Of a stretch of 64,000 nt of DNA, positions 14,795 through 16,517 are shown one piece after another (positions within the stretch are counted from its first letter, which is position 1; the number at the start of each line of letters is the position of its first letter). The stretch comes from Lutibacter agarilyticus. Its GTDB lineage: Bacteria > Bacteroidota > Bacteroidia > Flavobacteriales > Flavobacteriaceae. The notes under the pieces are model-generated. The model was not told where the DNA came from. It made no database searches and saw nothing but the letters and a program-made list of their open reading frames with translations. The stretch is taken from assembly GCF_900188235.1 (NCBI RefSeq), contig NZ_FZNT01000009.1, forward strand, positions 1 to 64,000. Reading direction: 5' to 3'. A program made the position numbers and the translations under genes.

Positions 14795-15235
14795 TTACGA
14801 AATTTCAATTACTTTTGGTTTTTGTTTTTTTGCTTCTTCTTTTTTAGCTAAACTAAATCTTAAGATTCCATTGTCGTATTTTGCTTTTATTTTTTCATCA
14901 GCAATGCTATCAGGTAATTGTAAAGATCTTTCAAAAGATGTGGCGCTAAACTCTTTACGAGTATAATTTTCACCTTTTTTTTCTTTGGTTTCTTCTTTCT
15001 TTGCTGAAATATTTAAACAACCATCGTCAATGGTAACTTCAAAATCTTTCTTATTGTATCCAGGTGCTGCCAATTCAATTTCAAACTCATCTTTTGTTTC
15101 TTTGATATTCAAAGCAGGTTCATTCATTTTTTTTAACCAAAGTTTATCGTTGAATAAATTGTTTGTGTTAAAATCTAAAAAATCTGGTGTAAGCAAATTT
15201 TCTAACGGACTTTTTCTAAATTTTACTAGTGACAT
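14795..15235 (-). CDS. Small heat shock protein, Hsp20/alpha-crystallin family
   Basis: The 146-residue protein has a short N-terminal arm, an alpha-crystallin domain (about 40-135; PALNIKETKDEFEIELAAPG, then FERSLQLPDSI, then the NGILRFSLAKK block), and a C-terminal tail with the V-I-E-I motif used for oligomer contacts. Hsp20 holds unfolding proteins without ATP. It is monocistronic, with a Crp/Fnr-type promoter whose -7 element is a perfect match, which suggests strong inducible expression. HspX/Acr is the hallmark of the mycobacterial dormancy regulon, so the parallel is informative. Confidence 0.93.
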   Translation of the reverse strand: MSLVKFRKSPLENLLTPDFLDFNTNNLFNDKLWLKKMNEPALNIKETKDEFEIELAAPGYNKKDFEVTIDDGCLNISAKKEETKEKKGENYTRKEFSATSFERSLQLPDSIADEKIKAKYDNGILRFSLAKKEEAKKQKPKVIEIS

Positions 15236-15389: not shown

Positions 15390-15421
15390 AAAAAAAACAG
15401 GAAGCCTTAGCTTCCTGTTTT
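15390..15421 (-). terminator. Strong terminator at the end of the repeat array
   Basis: A 12-bp stem (15394-15405 with 15410-15421) with a 4-nt loop is followed on the minus strand by eight T. On the plus strand only a short T run follows. It therefore stops leftward transcription arriving from the repeat array. Its stem sequence acaggaagc is shared with the hairpin inside each repeat. Confidence 0.75.
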
Positions 15422-15522
15422 CTAAAGGGTTTAATATGTTAACAATAGCTACGTAATTTCTTATGTTATTCTTAACTTAATAAAACTGAAATTAGTCTTT
15501 GTAATTATTAAATACCTTAACC

Positions 15523-16314
15523 CTTCATTTCAATCTCCATCGTTTTTCAAGAATGAAGATTTAATTTTTTAGAAACAGGAAGCCTAAACTTCCTGTTTCC
15601 TGAAGCATTTACAGCTTTTTAATACTTTCAAACAATTTCAATATCAAGTTATTACTAAAATAATATTAAAACCATTTTGCCATACCAAACGCTTTTAAAT
15701 CCTTCATTTCAATCTCCATTTTTTTTCAAGAATGAAGATTTAATTTTTTAGAAACAGGAAGCCTAAACTTCCTGTTTCCTGAAGCATTTACAGCTTTTGA
15801 ATACTTTCAAACAATTTCAACATCAAGTTATTTCTAAAATAATATTAAAACCATTTTACCATACCAAATGCTTTTAAATCCTCCATTTCAATCTCCATCG
15901 TTTTTCAAGAATGAAGATTTAATTTTTTAGAAACAGGAAGCCTAAACTTCCTGTTTCCTGAAGCATTTACAGCTTTTTAATACTTTCAAACAATTTCAAC
16001 ATCAAGTTATTTCTAAAATAATATTAAAACCATTTTGCCATACCAAATGCTTTTAAATCCTCCATTTCAATCTCCATCGTTTTTCAAGAATGAAGATTTA
16101 ATTTTTTAGAAACAGGAAGCCTAAACTTCCTGTTTCCTGAAGCATTTACAGCTTTTTAATACTTTCAAACAATTTCAACATCAAGTTATTTCTAAAATAA
16201 TATTAAAACCATTTTGCCATACCAAATGCTTTTAAATCCTTCATTTCAATCTCCATTTTTTTTCAAGAATGAAGATCTATTTTTTAGAAACAGGAAGCCT
16301 AAACTTCCTGTTTC
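15523..16314. repeat. Tandem repeat array, five units of 179 bp with hairpins
   Basis: Units start at 15523, 15702, 15881, 16060 and 16239, an exact 179-bp period; the fifth is cut short after its hairpin. The copies differ at only a few positions. Each holds an inverted repeat gaaacaggaag / cttcctgtttc with the loop cctaaa, at 15572-15599, 15751-15778, 15930-15957, 16109-16136 and 16287-16314. Upstream of it lies a second weaker inverted repeat, cttcatt...aatgaag. There are no unique spacers, so this is not a CRISPR array, and no open frame runs through it. Confidence 0.95.
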
Positions 16315-16474
16315 CTCCTGAAAAGACTTTGGTAACTTAGTGATATTGAAATAATCTTTCAAAAAATTTTTATCTCTAAAAATTAGAATGATAACCTACA
16401 ACTTCCATCAAAAAGTAGCTAAACCTCCTCAGTATAATTTACATATTGTTTCAAAGAGCTTTTAATTAATACAT

Positions 16475-16517
16475 CAAATTTAAGAGTTAAATAACTGTTG
16501 TTTTATGATGGACATCA
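16475..16517 (-). promoter_or_regulatory. Crp/Fnr-type box and perfect -7 element, no gene downstream
   Basis: TTATGATGGACATCATTTT has core TGA 16506-16508 and TCA 16515-16517 (centre 16511.5). TAAATTTG on the minus strand (16482-16475) is a perfect -7 element centred exactly 33 bp away. It lies downstream of the GH130 stop codon and points into the repeat array. A second TGA-N6-TCA at 16528-16539 has no -7 element at the right distance. Confidence 0.65.

Follow-up and report, generated by a model that had tools for sequence, protein, structure and literature searches.

A tandem array of three-stem RNA modules behind a Crp/Fnr-type operator and a boxA-like element: a predicted non-coding RNA family of Flavobacteriaceae

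Several classes of bacterial non-coding RNAs are, in one respect or another, similar to the locus studied here. CsrB, RsmZ and CrcZ are titrating RNAs that are switched by stress or nutrients and carry short GGA or CA-rich motifs; in CsrB and RsmZ, the GGA motifs are exposed in hairpin loops and bind CsrA/RsmA. FnrS of E. coli is an mRNA-pairing small RNA serving FNR, while OLE, GOLLD and ROOL are large ornate non-coding RNAs of unknown or only partly known function. BoxA elements are found in the leaders of CRISPR arrays as well as rRNA operons (PMC7862264, citing Stringer et al. 2020, eLife 9:e58182). Finally, the strongly structured sRNA Rfp18 of F. psychrophilum is needed for normal protease mRNA expression (PMC9723704).

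Here, we studied a stretch of 64,000 nt from Lutibacter agarilyticus (the window), the minus strand of which holds from 16517 to 15390 a Crp/Fnr-type palindrome, then a -7 box and a boxA-like element, and finally six homologous units of about 180 nt with a T8 terminator. The predicted product is similar to CsrB, RsmZ and CrcZ in that it is a switched non-coding RNA with many repeated elements, which suggests multivalent protein binding. In contrast to these RNAs, its units are covarying three-stem folds of about 180 nt, its leader contains a boxA, and its repeated GGA lies within the paired P3 stem of each unit (97-99% of cells paired) and not in an exposed loop as in CsrB and RsmZ. With FnrS, the array shares a Crp/Fnr-type operator, an intrinsic terminator and, as predicted, a stand-alone transcript, but FnrS is a short single RNA whereas the array is a tandem of about 1.1 kb without a conserved single-stranded seed. 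Like boxA-led CRISPR arrays and rRNA operons, it would combine a long untranslated RNA with a leader boxA (e.g., GTTCTTTAAAA), yet it is not rRNA, and a CRISPR array was rejected since the 179-bp units are homologous end to end and no repeat-spacer layout is present. OLE, GOLLD and ROOL are likewise long and highly structured, but the array is a concatemer of one module, restricted to one family, preceded by a Crp-type promoter and without an Rfam match. Rfp18 is a structured sRNA from the same bacterial family; this comparison is by description only. The text of PMC9723704 names neither Crp nor Fnr, and its Rfp18 passages report no repeats.

Tandem Repeats Finder reports a 179-bp unit with 4.4 copies and 97% matches for positions 15522-16316. 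The initial annotation of this DNA had placed array, operator, -7 box and T8 terminator at the coordinates used here, which are right, and had described five 179-bp repeats with an 11-bp hairpin each. The periodicity is thus recovered, but not the count: four near-identical full copies are found by sequence and six units by structure, where the divergent ones are the first (leader) and the last (terminator-bearing). The hairpin is there as well, but spans 12-13 bp and is only one of three stems. Near-identical copies of this hairpin, P3 (ACAGGAAG-6-CTTCCTGT), begin at 15397, 15575, 15754, 15933, 16112 and 16290.

In order of transcription on the minus strand, the divergent leader unit 1 (16286-16454) is followed by four units with the complete P1-P2-P3 architecture, namely units 2 (16108-16285), 3 (15929-16107), 4 (15750-15928) and 5 (15571-15749), which score 129.7, 131.4, 129.7 and 130.4 bits, respectively, with our broader covariance model R2. 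Unit 6 (15393-15570) has a divergent P2, and its P3 is the terminator stem. The leader unit is matched with E-values of 4e-6 (model R1) and 1.5e-8 (R2) and the last unit with 1.6e-23 (R1), where all covariance-model E-values are rough due to a short calibration.

The copy number is labile, i.e., the orthologous locus of Lutibacter litoralis has three units versus six in the window, which together with the four near-identical copies fits the recent tandem growth of the array that had been suspected initially. The own genome holds two array loci only, both behind the operator-promoter-boxA arrangement; the second one, on contig C21, comprises two units. At least seven P3-type hairpins are found in Lutibacter flavus (L027) with an irregular spacing of 137-408 nt, which suggests a rearranged or decaying array. 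In several distant genera (L057, L059, L076, L077), the P3 of the leader unit differs (AACCGG... paired with ...CCGGTT), and unit types thus vary inside one array.

Each unit folds on the minus strand into three stems, i.e., P1 (about 12 bp), the long imperfect hairpin P2 (about 50 bp) and the terminator-like P3 (12-13 bp), with P1 and P2 making up the bulk of the unit. For unit 5 we computed an MFE of -59.2 kcal/mol compared to -27.7 +/- 3.4 for shuffled sequences (z = -9.3), which excludes chance, while the plus strand is weaker with -30.5. The strand preference holds throughout the family-wide set, in which 102/103 units fold better in sense than in antisense orientation; the RNA strand is therefore fixed. 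The tip of P2 is often a GNRA tetraloop with U-A closing pairs (TA-GNRA-TA in 56/103 units, where shuffles lead to an expectation of 5.5).

Covariation was assessed at two levels. Within the genus, sixty units were aligned by sequence (alignment A1). Here, 42/64 pairs show double-sided changes compared to 25 in shuffles, and 90% of the cells are paired versus 39-54% after sliding the partners, a comparison that favours the unslid version since the scored structure was predicted from the same alignment. At family level, double changes are observed at 62/64 pairs, with 1047 double-change cells versus 339 in shuffles; this alignment (A3) was fitted to the covariance model, such that its counts lean towards the structure. 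Most of the unit is paired. The paired columns covary, while just two adenines among the unpaired columns exceed 85% conservation. That is, conservation resides in the pairing and not in unpaired letters, which favours protein recognition of a repeated shape over an antisense seed. The P3 palindrome is in addition strongly conserved in sequence across the family alignment, which could alternatively serve termination or RNase III processing.

The Crp/Fnr-type operator TGATGTCCATCA is located at 16506-16517 (minus strand) and the Bacteroidetes-type -7 promoter element TAAATTTG at 16475-16482, from which a transcription start near 16471 and a transcript of about 1.08 kb ending at 15390 are predicted. 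The palindrome (TGAN6TCA) is thereby centred about 41 nt upstream of the predicted start, a geometry taken from the window sequence. At class II promoters, Crp/Fnr activators occupy this position, i.e., about 41 nt before the start. The boxA-like element GCTCTTTGAAA (16449-16459, minus strand) follows about 12 nt into the predicted transcript, between promoter and array.

A module of TGAYNNNNRTCA and boxA precedes 64 of the 77 distinct arrays, where the boxA-like G(T/C)TC(T/A)TT motif lies 56-66 nt from the operator start. Within the same loci, the reverse complements used as a control yield 5 such modules and the downstream stretches none, and for a stricter operator-boxA pattern, Markov shuffles give a rate of 0.8 per 379 kb. 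Between operator and boxA, a TAnnTTwG box is present in 44/64 arrays and unmatched in the other 20. The initial annotation had counted the promoter among a set of such sites; this set was not reproduced with a strict pattern, as operator plus strict TAnnTTwG occurs in the 64-kb window at this site only. The operator-boxA module is likewise found once in the window. The check it had proposed, i.e., whether the order of promoter, array and terminator recurs in other genomes, came out positive for the promoter-array part; a terminal T-run is clear only in part of the Lutibacter arrays.

The window boxA sits early in the predicted transcript at a fixed distance and differs from the gamma-proteobacterial consensus GYTCTTTAANA (PMC5725501) by one mismatch, i.e., G for A at position 8. 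A CRISPR array of Legionella is preceded by the boxA GTTCTTTAAAA (PMC7862264), which some of the arrays studied here match exactly. The own rRNA leader carries AGTTCATTGA, which resembles the window boxA, and AAAGTTCATTGAAAA 118 nt before 16S; the rRNA leaders of several relatives show a near but non-identical boxA motif, while others are unmatched by the pattern used.

At the other end, the P3 of the last unit forms with its T8 tract (15397-15390) an intrinsic terminator at 15390-15421 (minus strand), which agrees with the earlier remark that terminator stem and repeat hairpins share their sequence. Downstream of the inner P3 copies, TTCTAAAAAA is found and U-tracts are lacking, whereas the last one is followed by TTTTTTTG, such that only the last resembles a good terminator there; the T-run after the last P3 is found in the window's subgroup. 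Sigma-70-style promoter and terminator scans of the window were uninformative, the former because Bacteroidetes promoters differ, and the T8 terminator was absent from the scan output. In sum, the regulation of the array is strongly supported at the level of sequence.

Homologous arrays were detected by DNA search in 26/38 Lutibacter genomes. Among 300 Flavobacteriaceae genomes, the covariance model R1 matches 52 and R2 54, the latter in 48/237 genera. About one fifth of the sampled genera thus give a match, which is to be read as a lower bound since the default filters, applied with R2 over 19-kb loci, lost known positives in these long loci. For the same reason, an empty R2 control run is left out of the evidence. 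In a class-wide search of 395 genomes, matches outside Flavobacteriaceae had E-values of 3e-4 or worse, i.e., chance level. Within the GTDB genome collection, the bare P3 pattern matched 64 loci, which by title belong to Flavobacteriaceae genera or to Flavobacteriales/Bacteroidetes MAGs without exception, and those then tested carried full-model matches, mostly in tandem. For the window region, a comparison with Rfam 15 (including 6S-Flavo, Flavo-1 and Bacteroidales-1) returned nothing relevant, and its best hit to 18 homologous loci was below gathering (E 0.058); its families were thus rejected as candidates. Plasmid and phage collections are without a match to the array, which led us to reject a mobile element.

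The second array of the genome, on contig C21, is directly downstream of a gene set that encodes a histidine kinase with PAS domain, a regulator of the receiver-cNMP-HTH_Crp type, a Usp and a protein of 129 aa that has no Pfam match. This cassette (L171:4779-8398, about 8.8-12.4 kb of C21) adjoins arrays in many genera. Full-length regulators of 55-61% identity are encoded in 10 further array contexts, compared to receiver-domain fragments only in the control stretches. A receiver-cNMP-HTH_Crp gene is found at most 1.7 kb upstream on the same strand in 26/52 array loci, and the regulator is present in 49/54 array genomes versus 89/246 others (p = 4e-14). It is a good candidate for a redox/stress two-component Crp system of Flavobacteriaceae. 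In total, eight HTH_Crp matches were counted in the own genome. While the paralogous C21 array is adjacent to such a gene, the window array is not, and we thus infer its activator.

Furthermore, a Usp is encoded near 14/19 arrays versus 0/19 control stretches, and for 9/19 arrays at other loci, an Hsp20 gene is at most 10 kb away, versus 0/19 controls. In the window, an hsp20 gene (14795-15235, minus strand; Pfam HSP20 E 7e-24) is a conserved neighbour outside the RNA, starting 155 nt past the array end on the same strand. The wider surroundings (6889-34867) form a dense stress island with Usp genes, Hsp20, a BON-domain protein, dodecin, a PEP synthase-like enzyme, a P-type cation ATPase, DUF2267, a baeRF-family protein and two GH130 phosphorylases.

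Considering all observations, we are very confident that both the RNA and its regulatory anatomy are conserved at the level of sequence features. The initially proposed reading as a regulated, leftward non-coding repeat RNA is supported by covariation, strand bias in folding, the missing coding signal and the same operator/boxA/array layout in other genera, and as far as Rfam 15 is concerned, its statement that no known RNA family fits is correct. The covariance search it had suggested for other flavobacteria did find the unit there. Its core thus stands, while the three-stem unit, boxA, the receiver-Crp locus and the family-wide distribution were absent from that picture. As the best explanation we consider a stand-alone, stress-activated and antiterminated structured non-coding RNA, the repeated shape of which binds a protein many times. 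We hold this combined reading to be probable, while protein binding as the function of the array RNA, taken on its own, is a more tentative proposal.

The array might instead be a precursor that is cut, e.g., by RNase III in P2/P3, into base-pairing sRNAs of about 180 nt that act on mRNAs, with several copies raising the dosage or broadening the target set. The Crp/Fnr-type control, as for FnrS, would fit such a precursor, as would the terminator-like stem closing each unit and the observation that units of one array can diverge; moreover, the structured Rfp18 is needed for protease mRNAs to be expressed normally (PMC9723704). Since the unit is mostly paired, with covarying paired columns and no conserved unpaired seed beyond the two adenines, we consider this alternative unlikely, though it deserves attention. 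A cis-acting leader, in which tandem terminator-like hairpins and boxA form an attenuator of the downstream gene (hsp20 in the window), draws on the closeness of hsp20 and on the order of array and hsp20 kept in Lutibacter litoralis. However, the T8 terminator separates array and hsp20, the inner hairpins have no U-tracts, and over the loci compared the downstream gene varies in kind and is encoded on the opposite strand in 8/21 cases, such that a cis leader is not general and, for hsp20, very improbable.

Even less credence is given to the remaining readings. In a repeated short-peptide gene, the ATG-initiated frames MEIEMKDLKAFGMAKWF and MLKLFESIKKL, which recur in the near-identical units (15540-16260, minus strand), would be translated; they are open in each window copy and show a synonymous and some conservative changes, which we judge coincidental. 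Against translation, the first ATG (frame MEIEMKDLKAFGMAKWF) falls within the 3' arm of P1, the longest ORF per unit has on average 11.9 codons compared to 11.8 in shuffles (103 units), and unit lengths spread over all three residues modulo 3. We thus conclude that the array is not coding, no conserved frame running through it, and reject short-peptide genes on this strand as a most improbable reading. The strong sequence conservation of the P3 palindrome and the different copy numbers of close species would also fit a REP/BIME-like or attC-like hairpin repeat, selfish or scattered, without transcript function. Such an origin has hardly any probability left given the compensatory evolution across the whole unit, the fixed orientation behind the promoter and the missing plasmid and phage matches; REP/BIME-like dispersed repeats in particular were rejected based on the mere two loci of the own genome, both with the upstream arrangement described above.

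For the favoured protein-binding array RNA, we envision the following course of events. When redox or oxygen stress sets in, the array would be turned on by an activator of the Crp/Fnr type, which is probably the receiver-Crp regulator linked to the PAS kinase. BoxA would recruit NusB/NusE such that RNA polymerase may pass the long untranslated RNA and the terminator-like inner hairpins, and it may mediate escape from Rho while the array is transcribed; boxA-dependent read-through and escape from Rho have been hypothesised for CRISPR arrays (PMC7862264). Transcription would end at P3 and T-run of the last unit. The resulting RNA of about 1.08 kb would display many copies of one shape, most likely titrating or scaffolding an RNA-binding protein, and would act in trans and not on neighbouring genes. 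In a more far-reaching version, which is speculative and on balance rather doubtful, the arrays constitute a new class of large modular RNA, around which Flavobacteriaceae under redox stress would assemble a multi-copy ribonucleoprotein, with tandem gain and loss of units, rRNA-style boxA antitermination and a receiver-Crp switch, and with a storage, ribosome-bound or polymerase-bound particle as the product.

Searches of the open-licence literature yielded no prior description of this RNA or its promoter arrangement in Flavobacteriaceae. Judged from sequence, family and build appear new, with Rfp18 compared by description only, while the mode of action may be of a known kind. The arrays add to the biology of Flavobacteriaceae an RNA family with covariation support in dozens of genera that is missing from Rfam, and an unusual build, i.e., copies of one three-stem module strung together downstream of a Crp-type switch and of a boxA-like element, which is elsewhere a feature of rRNA operons and CRISPR arrays. 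They also connect a conserved PAS-kinase/receiver-Crp/Usp stress locus to a non-coding output. The targets of this two-component Crp system, boxA antitermination in stress RNAs and the reader of the repeated RNA shape thereby become testable.
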